This document shows, in pieces, positions 7,427 through 12,080 of a stretch of 36,149 bases of DNA (its first letter is position 1; every line of letters begins with the position of its first letter). A program made the position numbers and the translations under genes. The DNA comes from Melioribacter sp. (GTDB lineage Bacteria; Bacteroidota; Ignavibacteria; Ignavibacteriales; Melioribacteraceae): contig PMDS01000042.1 of assembly GCA_003155655.1 (NCBI GenBank), positions 1-36,149 on the forward strand. The letters run 5' to 3'. Below the pieces are notes generated by a model. The model searched no databases. It had not been told where the DNA came from and saw only the letters and a program-made list of their open reading frames with translations.

Positions 7427-8947
7427 ATGCAGCAGCAAATGAATTCCGGGAAAAAAGAATTTGTAATTGGTTTGGATTGCAGTACTACAAGCACAAAAGC
7501 AATTGCCTTCGATAAAAACGGAAGAGTTGCCGCACAAGCAGTTGAAAAAATTCCGCTCTTTTCACCTAAATTAAATTATTACGAGCAAAATGCAAGCGAT
7601 TGGTGGATATCCTCCCGTAAAGCTTTGCGAAAAATAGTGCAACAAATTGATCCCGGTAGGATCACTGCTCTTGCAGTTTCAAACCAGAGAGAAACTTTTG
7701 TTGCTTTAGATAAAAACAGAAATAGTATAAGACAGGCAATCATCTGGCTGGATGAACGGTGCAAGGATGAGGTGGAATCTTTCTCACAAAAAATTGGAAA
7801 AGATAGAATTCATAAAATAACCGGCAAACCGGTTGATTACGCACCCGTAGTTTACCGGCTTGCGTGGATGAAAAAAAACGAACCGTTATTGTTCAAAAAA
7901 ATTGCGATGATATGCGATGTAAACACTTTCCTAGTCTGGAAATTAACCGGGGCATTTAGAACATGCTGGGCAAGCGCAGATCCGCTTGGAATGTTTGGTC
8001 TAAAAAATAAAAAGTGGTCTTCGGTAATTTTAAATGAATTGGAATTATATGAAAACCAGTTACCTGAAACATTTTGTCCGGGAACCGTTCTTGGAAAAGT
8101 TTCTGAAGAAGCGTCAAAATTAACTGGATTAAAAACAAATACACTAATAATAGCCGGAGGAGGCGACGGTCAAGCTGCCGGATTGGGATCGAACGTACTT
8201 ACTTCTAAAAGTGCTTACTTAAACTTAGGAACAGCAGTGGTGGCAGGCGTTTACAGCGCTCAATATAAAACTAACAAAGCTTACCGGACTATGTGCAGTT
8301 GTTCAGATGAAGGATATTATTTAGAATGCAGTTTGAGAGCAGGTACGTTTGCAATAGACTGGTTCATAAAAAAGATATTGAAAATCGATCCATTGCAACA
8401 GCCCAATATTTATAAACATCTGGAAAAGGGAGCTGAAAAAATTTCTATCGGCAGCAATGGCCTGCTACATTTACCCTATTTGTGCGGAGTAATGAATCCT
8501 TATTGGGATATAAATGCAAGAGGTGCTTTTATAGGTTTGTCGTCTTCACATACACGCGCGCATCTTTACCGTGCTATACTGGAAGGAATTGCATTTGAGA
8601 AGTTGTTTGCTATTAATGAGGTTGAAAAAAATATTAACGCTAACATAAAAGATTTAATAGTAATCGGCGGCGGCGCTTCCAATAATTTATGGCTGCGTAT
8701 TTTAGCCGACGTTACAGGAAAAAATATTTGCATTCCTGAAAATACTGAGGCATCTGCTCTTGGAGCAGCAATTACTGCCGCAGTAGGCGCTGGCTGGTAC
8801 AAAACATTTCAAGATGCTGCAAATAAAATGACAGGAATTAAAAAAATTATTAAACCGGATATTGACAACAATAAAAAATACAGGCAGATATATTCTGTGT
8901 ATACAAAAATATACCCTGCGTTAAAAAGCATTACTGTTGATTTTTAA
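7427..8947 (+). CDS. FGGY-family carbohydrate kinase, xylulokinase-like
   Basis: A 506-residue ATP-dependent sugar kinase. It opens with the phosphate-1 motif GLDCSTTSTKA, carries SNQRETFVALD and a WLDERC segment of the substrate lobe, and later the GGGDGQAAGLG and VIGGGASNN motifs of the actin-like ATPase fold. The family phosphorylates xylulose, glycerol, gluconate or related polyols; the upstream dehydrogenase makes a ketose kinase such as xylulokinase most likely, but the NQRET motif also occurs in glycerol-kinase relatives. The start is ATG at 7427 directly after the previous stop, or ATG at 7439; neither has a strong ribosome site, suggesting translational coupling. Confidence 0.8.
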   Translation: MQQQMNSGKKEFVIGLDCSTTSTKAIAFDKNGRVAAQAVEKIPLFSPKLNYYEQNASDWWISSRKALRKIVQQIDPGRITALAVSNQRETFVALDKNRNSIRQAIIWLDERCKDEVESFSQKIGKDRIHKITGKPVDYAPVVYRLAWMKKNEPLLFKKIAMICDVNTFLVWKLTGAFRTCWASADPLGMFGLKNKKWSSVILNELELYENQLPETFCPGTVLGKVSEEASKLTGLKTNTLIIAGGGDGQAAGLGSNVLTSKSAYLNLGTAVVAGVYSAQYKTNKAYRTMCSCSDEGYYLECSLRAGTFAIDWFIKKILKIDPLQQPNIYKHLEKGAEKISIGSNGLLHLPYLCGVMNPYWDINARGAFIGLSSSHTRAHLYRAILEGIAFEKLFAINEVEKNINANIKDLIVIGGGASNNLWLRILADVTGKNICIPENTEASALGAAITAAVGAGWYKTFQDAANKMTGIKKIIKPDIDNNKKYRQIYSVYTKIYPALKSITVDF

Positions 8948-8950
8948 GTT

Positions 8951-9037
8951 CGCCACAGCCTGTCCCGACGTTTTTAGTCGGGGGGTGTACCCCCGACTAA
9001 AAATATCCCAGCAAAAAGCGCGGGACAAGCTGTGGCG
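8951..9037. terminator. Nested inverted repeat between convergent genes, likely bidirectional terminator
   Basis: The outer 17-base arms at 8951-8967 and 9021-9037 (CGCCACAGCCTGTCCCG and its complement) match with one mismatch. Inside, TTTTTAGTCGGGGG (8971-8984) pairs with CCCCCGACTAAAAA (8990-9003) around a four- to five-base loop, giving a GC-rich stem flanked by A/T runs on both strands, as expected of a bidirectional terminator. It lies between convergent genes ending at 8947 and 9075. The long outer arms also suggest a dispersed palindromic repeat. Confidence 0.65.
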
Positions 9038-9074
9038 CGCTAGAAAAGGTGTAATACAGCAGATTTTCTTTCAG

Positions 9075-10169
9075 TTAGCGGACTTTTTTTAGTATTTGTT
9101 CGATTGAGTTTAAACATCTACGTGGCATTAAATCTATACCTGCTGATTCACCATAGATGACATATCGAAGCATAGCATATTTAGCTATAGAAGCAGTATT
9201 TTTTTTTAAGTTTTCTGCAACCTTTGTATTTAATCTTGCCAAAGAAGTAAAACAAGTATAGCACATATTTGAAGGATCATGATGAGTGAGTAGTACCTTC
9301 TCTTTTTCAGGAGTTGGTATTAAATCAATAGTTTCTGCAATACCACCAATCCGAAGAGACTGTATAATGGGATTTGTATGAAATCTGCGGTAAACTGTTC
9401 TTAGACTTTCTTTCTTTAGATCACCAAGGATTAGAGGATTATTTTTCTTCAGATTTGGAATGGCCCCGCAACAAGCATAGACAATTCCAGACGGATAAAT
9501 TATTGGTAATATACTGGTACATGGAAAAAGAGGCAATTTAATTACCGGACTTTCACATTCTAAAATAGGTTCACCTTTATTATTAAGATAAATTAGGTTG
9601 GATTCATATAAATGATGATTAACTTTTAATTGAGATATCATTTCGGAAAAAATCTTGAAATACTCTTCATCATTAGGTTGTCTAACAATTCTAATATAAC
9701 CGAGTTTATTAAGTGCAGTCATGGCACAAATTGCATTTTTTATTCTATCTAAACTTATATATGAAGAATGTCTAATATCAGTGCTAATATCAAATCTAGT
9801 AACGTGCTTAAACTGTTTTACTTTATTTTCCGCTTTAGAAATACTAGTTGCCCAGAAACAGTTTGTCACAATACCTGTTTCAAAACCAAGATCAGAAGCA
9901 AAAGTAGTATATTTAAAAAGCGGAAGTTCATATAAGAATGGTTCTCCACCAGTGAAAGAAATTAAATTAGGGCCTATATTTTCCTTTTTAAGTTTTGCTG
10001 CATCTTCGAGAATTCGAATAACATTATAAATCGGCGGAAAATCTGATATATGCGGAGAAGATAAAGAAATGCAATGTGCACAACGGATATTGCATTTTCT
10101 TGAAAGAATAATACCAAGATTAGTGGCACTTATCTTTACGATTGTATTAATTATTTCTATAGCTTTCAT
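9075..10169 (-). CDS. Radical SAM enzyme with cysteine-rich C-terminal region, candidate peptide maturase
   Basis: A 364-residue radical S-adenosylmethionine protein. The 4Fe-4S/SAM motif CNIRCAHC gives Cys26, Cys30 and Cys33, and GGEPF follows at 74-78. The C-terminal half has further cysteines at Cys217 (FPCTS), Cys233-Cys234 (YACCG) and Cys303/Cys306 (CYTC), a layout recalling SPASM/twitch domains that bind extra clusters in peptide-modifying enzymes, though not a complete textbook SPASM. The gene is the last of a minus-strand set of small genes; the 94-residue product of 10300-10584 is a plausible substrate. An inverted repeat (10211-10255) separates the two. The ATG at 10169 has only a weak ribosome site. 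The reaction is unknown. Confidence 0.8.
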   Translation of the reverse strand: MKAIEIINTIVKISATNLGIILSRKCNIRCAHCISLSSPHISDFPPIYNVIRILEDAAKLKKENIGPNLISFTGGEPFLYELPLFKYTTFASDLGFETGIVTNCFWATSISKAENKVKQFKHVTRFDISTDIRHSSYISLDRIKNAICAMTALNKLGYIRIVRQPNDEEYFKIFSEMISQLKVNHHLYESNLIYLNNKGEPILECESPVIKLPLFPCTSILPIIYPSGIVYACCGAIPNLKKNNPLILGDLKKESLRTVYRRFHTNPIIQSLRIGGIAETIDLIPTPEKEKVLLTHHDPSNMCYTCFTSLARLNTKVAENLKKNTASIAKYAMLRYVIYGESAGIDLMPRRCLNSIEQILKKVR

Positions 10170-10210
10170 AAATAGTATCTCGTTGTTGGGAATTCATACA
10201 ATTTAATATC

Positions 10211-10255
10211 ACGTTGCATACCATTTTTGAATTTTCGAATTGTAGTATGCAACGT
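10211..10255 (-). promoter_or_regulatory. Perfect 11-bp inverted repeat between the small gene and the radical SAM gene
   Basis: ACGTTGCATAC at 10211-10221 pairs perfectly with GTATGCAACGT at 10245-10255; the loop contains a smaller AATT-type stem. On the minus-strand transcript it lies 45-90 bases after the stop of the 94-residue gene and 42 bases before the radical SAM start. No U-run follows, so it may be an RNA-stabilising or processing hairpin that separates expression of the two genes, or a protein-binding site. Confidence 0.5.
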
Positions 10256-10299
10256 AAAATATTTAGTATAGGTAATGGACATCGTAAGTATTAATTTCT

Positions 10300-10584
10300 T
10301 TATCTACTCAGCTGAGTTCGAGTCAAATTTTGAGCATTATTTTCCCACGTAATCAGTTTGGAACAAGCGGCAACTCCTTTCCCGAGTATAGAATAGATTT
10401 CATTTAACGTCCTATTATCGATGCCTTTATTTTTTAGTTCTTTAATTAAGGACTTTCTTGCCGCTGAGCTTGAAAGCAGTATAGCAGCATTATCCTTATT
10501 TGTTAAAAAGGTCTTAAGATTTTTAGTACTCTTTACTGCTTCTTTAATAGCAGCTGTATTAATAATACTAGAGTTGGCTGGCAT
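10300..10584 (-). CDS. Small helical protein, candidate precursor peptide for the radical SAM enzyme
   Basis: Encodes 94 residues from the ATG at 10584, which has GGGAG seven bases upstream; an in-frame TTG at 10617 would add 11 residues but lacks such a site. There is no signal peptide or membrane segment. Most of the protein looks amphipathic-helical (KNLKTFLTNKD, SLIKELKNKG, NRTLNEIYSILGKG), with one cysteine (Cys74) and one tryptophan (Trp80) in a C-terminal segment ending LTRTQLSR. A leader-like helical body with a short distinct tail, directly upstream of a radical SAM gene, is what a RiPP precursor looks like, and the body loosely recalls Nif11-type leaders. I do not recognise the family; the precursor role is inference. 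Confidence 0.6.
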   Translation of the reverse strand: MPANSSIINTAAIKEAVKSTKNLKTFLTNKDNAAILLSSSAARKSLIKELKNKGIDNRTLNEIYSILGKGVAACSKLITWENNAQNLTRTQLSR

Positions 10585-10657
10585 AGTTATTCTCCCATAA
10601 TTGTTTTTTAATTTCAATAAGAAATAAATAATTGTTCCATTATGCTAGTAATAATTA

Positions 10658-10675
10658 CTATAACCATGGTGGCAT
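10658..10675 (-). other. Five-codon mini-ORF (MPPWL) with strong ribosome site
   Basis: On the minus strand GGAAGGAGA lies five bases before ATG CCA CCA TGG TTA TAG. It sits 73 bases upstream of the 94-residue gene, whose start has the similar GGGAGAATAACTATGCC context. It could be a leader peptide, a decayed copy of the downstream gene start, or chance. Confidence 0.3.
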
Positions 10676-10840
10676 TAATTTCTCCTTCCTTCAAACCTAG
10701 CTAATAAATTATTTTACACTTGTATAAATATTCAACCGTTTCCACGCACGGTGTGAGTTTAGACTCTTATTAATGAGTATTTGCTTGAATAGAAAAATCC
10801 AAGAGTGAAGCATTTATTTTCAGATTAATTTATGCGCTTT

Positions 10841-11053
10841 TTATTTTGATTTTTTTAAATATAGAGCTACATTTTTATGAAACTCTTTTGTATCCATTTT
10901 TTCGAATTCATCAGGAACTACAATTACATGAAGTTTCTGATTTTCCGGTACAATTAATTCAAATCTGAATTCTCCAGAAATAAAATCATTTGAATGACCC
11001 TGCACAGTCCCGATTATCTTACCAGATTTGCTTGTAATTACAGTTAATCTCAT
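10841..11053 (-). CDS. Small conserved-looking protein of unknown function
   Basis: Encodes 70 residues starting MRLTVITSKSGKIIGTVQGH. Alternating hydrophobic residues suggest a small beta-rich fold, followed by a short helix ending in lysines. There is no signal peptide. The start is certain: its ATG overlaps the stop of the upstream 88-residue gene as ATGA, and a strong GGAGGTG ribosome site lies within the last codons of that gene. I vaguely recognise similar small proteins (start of the form MRLTVI..K.GKI.G) of unknown role in other bacteria. The next gene downstream, 256 bases on, is the candidate precursor. Confidence 0.65.
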   Translation of the reverse strand: MRLTVITSKSGKIIGTVQGHSNDFISGEFRFELIVPENQKLHVIVVPDEFEKMDTKEFHKNVALYLKKSK

Positions 11054-11316
11054 GAGCCACCTCCGTTTCGTATTTTAAAAATAGCAGGGTAGTCACTAGT
11101 ATTCGTTACATCGCAACCATAATGTATTCCACCGTCATTACTCATTCCTTCGAATTGATTAGATATAACGAAATTAGAACCAGGCGTTTTTGGCTCCACC
11201 CCGGTCTGAAAAATTCCGTGATCTTTTCCGTCTGATCCAAAAAACCACGAAAGATGCAAAGTTGCATGAGGCGCTAATGAAAAGTAGTTAGGCCATTCAA
11301 AATATTGCCATCCCAT
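11050..11316 (-). CDS. Small aromatic-rich protein of unknown function
   Basis: Encodes 88 residues with unusually many Trp, Phe and Tyr (WQYFEWPNYF, LSWFFGSDG), scattered Gly/Asn/Asp, one cysteine and a GGGS tail. Composition and alternation suggest a small beta-sandwich, perhaps sugar- or surface-binding; I do not recognise the family. It lacks a signal peptide. The ATG at 11316 is preceded by GCGGAG at good spacing. It is the first gene of the minus-strand set and is translationally coupled by a four-base overlap to the 70-residue gene. Confidence 0.6.
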   Translation of the reverse strand: MGWQYFEWPNYFSLAPHATLHLSWFFGSDGKDHGIFQTGVEPKTPGSNFVISNQFEGMSNDGGIHYGCDVTNTSDYPAIFKIRNGGGS

Positions 11317-12080
11317 ATTTTTACTCCGCTTTTTTATTTACGCCTACTCTTTTATAGCTTTTCGGCTTCCGCTATTTTTATTAGAAATTATTTGTCTTAG
11401 CTCGAATGTGTATAAGAATTTCTTTGCTCGATTTATTTTATAGATTGATTTAACCGCAAGAAAAGCGAGAGTATGAATAAATAATTGCGATTGATTTTTT
11501 TCTTACTCTTAATCATAATCCTACTCTTACTCAGTATTACTTACACCTCCGGCACATCACTTACATTTTTTACCGAGCAATTAGCATTCAGCATAAAATT
11601 GTAAAATTCATACATCAAGCAATAAGTATCAATCAGCAAGAATCCAATAAAGGCATTTTTTGAACACGGCATATAAGCCGGATTAGAATAAAAGTTGAAG
11701 AAAGGAACCTGTAATAGAAAGTTTAACCCAAAACAAGAAAGTATATATTACTTGCCCAACAATCTTTTAGATGAAATAAGAAATAACTTTTTCCCCAAAT
11801 AATTTTTAAAATCGAGTGGGTTTCAAAATAAAATTAGATTTGGAGTTATTTCAATAAAACCTCATAAAATTGTGTGATAAATATCTATTTCCAGATTGGA
11901 GATTTTCTATAGAGATAAGTTTAGATAAGGAATCACGAAAGGATTTTCCCCTAATGTTTAACTGGTTCGTTCGAAGTTTAAGGGAAGAACGAAACGTAAT
12001 TTGATAAACAAATTGCCCCATAATCTTGAACATCTTTAATTCAATTACTAAATAAAAAAAATATTATGAAAAGTAAAGTA
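11317..12080. other. Long intergenic region without a convincing gene
   Basis: About 760 AT-rich bases separate the small-gene locus from the ene-reductase gene. A promoter for the minus-strand set starting at 11316 should lie in the first part. Imperfect CTTACTC/CCTACTC tandem units occur around 11500-11530, and CGGCATATAAGCCGG-like symmetry near 11669-11683. A 60-codon minus-strand frame at 11851-12033 has no ribosome site and no recognisable motif, so I do not call it. Confidence 0.5.

Follow-up and report, generated by a model that had tools for sequence, protein, structure and literature searches.

Two known routes lead to ribosomal peptides with D-amino acids, proteusins and epipeptides; as set out in part of one review, their enzymes are unrelated and their precursor types differ (PMC8326336). 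The epipeptide epimerase EpeE/YydG (epeXEPAB, B. subtilis) is a radical S-adenosylmethionine (SAM) enzyme for which passages of two reviews propose Cys223 as hydrogen donor, probably recycled by a C-terminal [4Fe-4S] cluster (PMC5682303, PMC8326336). The PoyD-type proteusin epimerase is described in the corresponding part of the second review as having no auxiliary cluster and carrying an RRE, a recognition element for ribosomally synthesized and post-translationally modified peptides (RiPPs) (PMC8326336). Here, we analyze a stretch of 36,149 nucleotides (nt) from Melioribacter sp. of the Bacteroidota (GenBank assembly GCA_003155655.1, contig PMDS01000042.1; hereafter the window), in which the genes for a 94-amino-acid (aa) protein and a radical SAM enzyme probably form a minimal RiPP module, a precursor with an NHLP-like leader and an EpeE-type epimerase. 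D-amino-acid formation is the likely chemistry of the pair. The features in question, with the evidence for each, including open reading frames (ORFs), are:

9075-10169, minus strand: EpeE/YydG-like radical SAM enzyme, 364 aa (Pfam/NCBIfam, EpeE cysteine alignment, AlphaFold fold)
10206-10260, minus strand: RNA hairpin with a stem of ~15 bp between the precursor and enzyme genes (folding versus shuffles)
10300-10584, minus strand: candidate precursor peptide, 94 aa (ORF, profiles of relatives' ORFs, single-sequence model)
10841-11053, minus strand: 70-aa protein of unassigned function, coupled to the 88-aa gene (ORF, codon usage)
11050-11316, minus strand: 88-aa protein of unassigned function (ORF, codon usage)
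11341-11375, minus strand: Rfam DUF805b RNA (RF02914), upstream of the 88-aa gene (Rfam match)

The window enzyme shares with EpeE/YydG the predicted fold, the SAM-cluster motif, the auxiliary-cluster cysteines and the Cys223 donor position, and its gene likewise follows a small precursor gene. Unlike EpeE, it falls below the equivalog cut-off, is only 18-20% identical in the structural match and has Leu at the Asp210 position. The locus also differs from that of epipeptides (EpeX/YydF) in that, with ORFs read by eye, no short YydF-type precursor, recognized peptidase or ABC transporter is present, and in that its precursor has 94 aa with a long helical leader, compared with 51 aa for YydF in a plasmid locus. 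Precursors of the NHLP clan (Os1348, NF038399) have the same leader-then-short-core build and a weak profile-level kinship to the window protein, although the latter itself reaches no clan model. In proteusins (polytheonamide; PoyD type), too, a radical SAM epimerase goes with a long leader. Predicted auxiliary-cluster cysteines are present in the window enzyme. The polytheonamide pathway has methyltransferases, whereas none is seen beside the window pair.

On sequence and model comparison, the enzyme is a distant relative of EpeE/YydG. It matches Pfam Radical_SAM (E 5e-9) and, as an earlier reading made from the sequence alone had reported, has the canonical CxxxCxxC motif (C26/C30/C33). Its best NCBIfam model is YydG (TIGR04078, an equivalog; 67.4 bits, E 1.4e-18), and YydG/EpeE heads the solved relatives found with phmmer. 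An AlphaFold model from 35 rows has a mean predicted local distance difference test (pLDDT) score of 82.6 and a predicted template modeling score of 0.83, with a good core and a poor part after about residue 330. The first nine Foldseek ranks all go to EpeE chains (E 3e-14 to 3e-13), with the next fold at 5e-8, and the model superposes on EpeE with Z 24.7-25.1 over 305-311 residues at 18-20% identity. Viperin-like proteins are the next fold by Z (19), and the enzyme matches the pVip model (E 1.4e-11) and the NCBIfam prokaryotic viperin model NF038283 (45.4 bits), which could make it a prokaryotic viperin-like antiviral radical SAM enzyme. We regard this as very improbable: the NF038283 cut-off of 180 bits is not reached, viperins reach Foldseek E 3e-6 against 3e-14 for EpeE and Z 19 against 25, and five conserved C-terminal cysteines follow the EpeE layout. 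To our knowledge, viperins lack these five cysteines.

The sequence-only reading counted five extra C-terminal cysteines. There are seven beyond residue 200 (205, 217, 233, 234, 303, 306 and 352), and it is five of these (C217, C233, C234, C303 and C306) that donor-type relatives conserve. C217, C233-C234, C303 and C306 align with the C...CC...CxxC of EpeE, so placed that C234 falls on the hydrogen donor Cys223; the second cysteine of the EpeE pair is Cys223, because the C223A mutant chain in the PDB reads PCAS where other EpeE chains read PCCS. With ligand roles taken from passages of two reviews (PMC5682303, PMC8326336) and from PDB titles, we predict C217/C233/C303/C306 to be an auxiliary cluster and C234 to be the H-atom donor.

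Searches against maturase families, which the sequence-only reading had proposed, put YydG on top among NCBIfam models, below its cut-off of 300 bits, and gave a Pfam SPASM match of 15.7 bits, short of the gathering score of 21.5. The latter bears on a SPASM-like chemistry, in which the enzyme would make a thioether at Cys74 or a carbon-carbon crosslink at Trp80 of the 94-aa peptide. The candidate core contains both residues, the precursor at locus L140 likewise ends in Trp and the precursor tail at L032 has two cysteines, but the tails at L140, L034, L063 and L147 have none, all nine EpeE chains stand above the other folds listed by Foldseek and the donor-type cysteine is retained. We consider such a crosslink or thioether unlikely. 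The earlier suggestion of Cys74 as a modification site loses ground with it, since a thioether is less likely than epimerization for an EpeE-like enzyme.

From sequence comparison, the 94-aa protein is best read as the precursor of the radical SAM enzyme. A single-sequence model is helical over residues 10-67 with a poor tail, consistent with a helical leader of about residues 10-67 and a candidate core of about residues 68-94, within which Cys74 and Trp80 lie where the sequence-only reading had placed them. In its own genome and 56 relatives the protein matches only its own genome. Profiles of relatives' ORFs built with the window excluded nevertheless single it out. With five such ORFs it is the best match in the genome at E 0.019, ahead of 0.40 for the runner-up, with 17 first-look candidates scored. 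Once the G491 ORF replaces that of L032, nothing else in the 4.6-Mb genome matches up to E 10, and the protein itself reaches E 0.0026, with 16 candidates scored. The scores of the window-free profiles A4 and A5, which represent no curated family, are weak at 16-20 bits. The protein came first among the 263 window ORFs with all four profiles tried, one of them built from four ORFs that match NHLP-clan models (E 3.8e-5, next 1.5). When L147, originally found by a profile that contained the window protein, was added to these four, the protein ranked second (E 0.0034) of 5,658 entries, which comprise 5,637 ORFs, mostly from EpeE-like loci, and 21 scrambled controls. First was a 76-aa ORF in G530, which has a further radical SAM gene downstream of it; six of the eight remaining matches listed adjoin EpeE-like enzymes, and none of the ten matches listed is a scrambled control.

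A profile that includes the window protein (A6) matches three of 391 class genomes at E <= 0.001, namely that of the window and G491, both in the profile, and G494, which is not. An EpeE-like enzyme lies in the cluster in 3/3 cases, as the sequence-only reading would have it for relatives of the 94-aa protein. About 60 residues of the protein align with the G491 (L140) precursor, 109/20000 shuffles scoring as high, and the C-terminal Trp of that precursor falls on Trp80. Taken together, these comparisons suggest a weak profile-level kinship of the 94-aa protein to ORFs that include NHLP-clan (Os1348) precursors. The earlier statement that no small protein here belongs to a known precursor class holds for the 94-aa protein insofar as it hits no curated model, but not at the level of profiles.

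Relatives of the enzyme occur in 19/395 genomes of a phylum search (E <= 1e-6) and 10/391 of a class search, the own genome included in both, and in 13 plasmid records, one of which is a true YydF/YydG locus; the 56 relatives add partial and weak matches in four genomes (E 3e-5 to 1e-3). Single-protein scans with the enzyme found no relative in viral contigs, GTDB contigs or phages. A 17-row alignment proved too diverse for scanning, and a three-row alignment was used, giving one weak locus in viruses (L121, residues 7-79, E 2e-6) and 71 loci in GTDB contigs; among the weaker of these are many other radical SAM proteins. Most of the weaker GTDB loci (L084 on) deviate from the EpeE motif layout and were not counted as kin.

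Many enzymes with two cysteines (CC) at the donor position have directly upstream an ORF without known function, often leader-like (if annotated at all, then as 'hypothetical protein', once as a DUF protein), so that the expected small leader-bearing neighbors are found repeatedly, but not always. Compared with NCBIfam, five of 15 such cluster ORFs match NHLP-clan models below E 1e-3 (L034, L062, L063, L071 and L147), L063 alone above the curated cut-off; the L044 ORF matches at E 1.2e-3 and the other nine have no match. The hosts of the NHLP-clan-matching ORFs in EpeE-like clusters are G343, G494, Pyrinomonadaceae, Lachnospiraceae and Planctomycetota, and the Pyrinomonadaceae ORF is the one that passes the cut-off. 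In G494 a second radical SAM gene lies between an ORF matching NF038399 (3.6e-7) and an EpeE-like CC enzyme downstream of it. In G491 a TIGR03975 RiPP C-methyltransferase (553 bits) comes after the precursor and enzyme, reminiscent of the methyltransferases of polytheonamide. Some precursor tails are strikingly repetitive, as with the alternating Asn-Ala runs of Klebsiella and Collinsella plasmid proteins, which recall polytheonamide-type D/L peptides. Plasmid ORFs with Asn-Ala tails at L043 2749-3480 and L047 2731-3453 adjoin EpeE-like enzymes and annotated methyltransferases.

In a 58-row tree labeled by donor position, 38 rows are CC, 13 are ACxG (donor lost) and seven are other; the tree took in L102, L107 and L110, which keep the EpeE layout, and L085, L086, L087, L089 and L092 entered as 'other'. 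The ACxG rows occupy one side of a branch (support 100/99), and the window enzyme itself retains CC. Its placement is uncertain, since it forms a long branch with at most 29% identity to any row and sits next to donor-less rows. These neighbors, the 130-nt gap between the two genes and the 70/88-aa pair directly upstream on the same strand would fit an enzyme acting on another substrate, such as the 70- or 88-aa protein or a small molecule, with the 94-aa protein an unrelated neighbor. That the profiles link the 94-aa protein with ORFs that adjoin further EpeE-like enzymes, with cluster matches in the class, and that neither the 88-aa nor the 70-aa protein has such relatives in the collections searched, makes another substrate quite unlikely in our judgment.

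The RiPP reading is supported for the pair of the 94-aa protein and the radical SAM enzyme because the enzyme is EpeE-like, the profiles match and some relatives' precursors match NHLP-clan models. Several observations weigh against it. On the side of the 94-aa protein, the single-sequence model has a pLDDT of 65.7 and no PDB match at E <= 0.001, and the protein matches no NCBIfam RiPP model, those of the NHLP clan (NF038399, TIGR03793, TIGR04509) included, among matches listed up to E 5. Pairwise comparison with 21 ORFs gave no more than 23/2000 shuffles scoring as high for 4/21 and more for 17/21 (not significant), the best score of the set being reached in 108/2000 shuffles, and the rows of A4 and A5 were partly chosen after pairwise scores had been seen. 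On the side of the enzyme, the curated YydG cut-off of 300 bits is not reached at 67.4 bits, phmmer places Leu221 opposite EpeE Asp210 (mutated in 8ai6), the branch is long and isolated (1.44) with at most 29% identity to any row, and its nearest tree neighbors, L066 and L069 (Chloroflexota; 95/84), lack the donor cysteine. As to neighborhood, several donor-type (CC) enzymes have no clear upstream precursor (for example L065, L077, L081, L083 and L110), the 130-nt gap exceeds that of most relatives read, and no protease or exporter adjoins the pair among the ORFs of 8948-12080.

If the pair works as an epimerase and its substrate, SAM would be cleaved at the C26/C30/C33 cluster and the resulting 5'-deoxyadenosyl radical would take the alpha-hydrogen from a core residue of the 94-aa protein. 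Candidate sites are the hydrophobic residues around VAA (71-73) and LI (77-78), that is Val71, Ala72/73, Leu77 and Ile78. Cys234 would give a hydrogen back from the other face, leaving a D-residue, and the C217/C233/C303/C306 cluster would assist in recycling Cys234. Leader removal and export would depend on a protease and exporter encoded elsewhere, or the product may remain inside. The hairpin between the genes (10206-10260; z -3.64, 1/200 shuffles folding as well) is a possible stabilizer or attenuator and could hold the enzyme level below that of the precursor.

An EpeE-type enzyme with an NHLP-like leader appears to join two systems usually described separately, and none of the papers listed in literature searches (titles and abstract starts) describes such a pairing. 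On balance, we lean towards the view that EpeE-type epimerases extend beyond epipeptides and form a broad, mostly unstudied superfamily across many phyla, whose substrates are NHLP-like and other long-leader precursors and which sometimes acts alongside B12-type radical SAM methyltransferases, that the window holds a deep, isolated member with its own precursor, and that D-amino-acid RiPPs beyond proteusins and epipeptides are widespread. Such a family would connect the proteusin and epipeptide routes, add minable clusters in plasmids, Bacteroidota, Acidobacteriota, Planctomycetota, Bacillota and archaea, and offer simple two-gene test cases for introducing D-residues into peptides. The donor-position cysteine (CC versus Cx) suggests itself as a rule for predicting which members can epimerize.

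The four minus-strand ORFs at 9075-11316 (in order of transcription the 88-, 70- and 94-aa genes and then that of the 364-aa radical SAM protein) are present as the sequence-only reading described, with the ATG of the 70-aa gene overlapping the stop of the 88-aa gene by 4 nt. By eye, GGGAG precedes the 94-aa gene, in agreement with the ribosome site noted earlier, GGAG precedes the 88-aa gene and the GGAGGT of the 70-aa gene sits within the end of the 88-aa gene. Codon usage supports the coding status of all four: composition-matched random codons score as high in 1/2000 sets for the radical SAM gene, 2/2000 for the 94-aa gene and 0/2000 each for the 70- and 88-aa genes; one rival frame within the 88-aa stretch equals its own frame in score. 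A scan found no terminator between the genes; the single one in the region falls within the 88-aa gene, against 1.8 expected. No protease or transporter was recognized among the ORFs of 8948-12080. GC content is 30-34% over ~9.3-12.3 kb in surroundings of mostly 36-44%. An accessory island is likely, with composition only a hint because dips to 32-34% also occur nearby, at 13.2-14.7 kb.

The earlier picture of one peptide-modification operon stands for the precursor and enzyme pair but not for the 70/88-aa pair, which is tied to the RiPP pathway only by position, has no convincing relatives and has DUF805b upstream; we do not assign it to the RiPP. The 70-aa protein matches only its own genome among that genome and the 56 relatives, with no convincing relative there or in plasmids (the phylum sample was not searched), and the 88-aa protein has none in the 56 relatives, plasmids and 295 other phylum genomes. 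On inspection, we rejected the four weak matches of the 88-aa protein (E 8.5e-4 to 0.0066): a 135-aa ORF, ExbD-like by eye (E 8.5e-4, the one place among the 56 relatives), one with two internal stops, part of an 860-aa ORF and an overlap with an opposite-strand 500-aa ORF. Pfam DUF4898 was rejected for the 70-aa protein (16.2 bits versus a cut-off of 25). DUF805b (RF02914) lies 24 nt before the 88-aa start (50.7 bits versus gathering 35.6). The genome has two matches (best 150 of 2443 first-look candidates scored), the other at L154 1501-1535, ~20 nt before another ORF of unassigned function, which suggests a leader RNA of accessory genes; a literature search on DUF805b found no paper.

The ACxG clade (L050-L060, L025/L057), which possibly performs a different radical chemistry, is often paired with its own conserved upstream protein of 69-124 aa, for example at L052 3666-5029, L054 3375-5020 and L060 862-2221. 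Such pairs occur in Chlorobium, Nitrospirota, Myxococcota, Thermodesulfobacteriota, Bathyarchaeota, Methanoperedens and other Bacteroidota. A profile of the partner gave 17/17 matches up to E 0.1 adjoining such enzymes (9,941 ORFs; overlapping loci with some repeats) and no match in six other Chlorobium-like loci (L026-L031), and a Pfam cut-off was reached in 0/5 partners examined. An EpeE-like subgroup (L142, L143, L145, L066 and L069) has Gln or Glu after the first donor-position cysteine and no obvious adjoining precursor. In the window, a perfect 14-nt inverted repeat with a 5-nt loop (8971-9003), within a longer imperfect one (8941-9047), sits between the radical SAM gene and a 506-aa ORF that is xylulokinase-like by eye.

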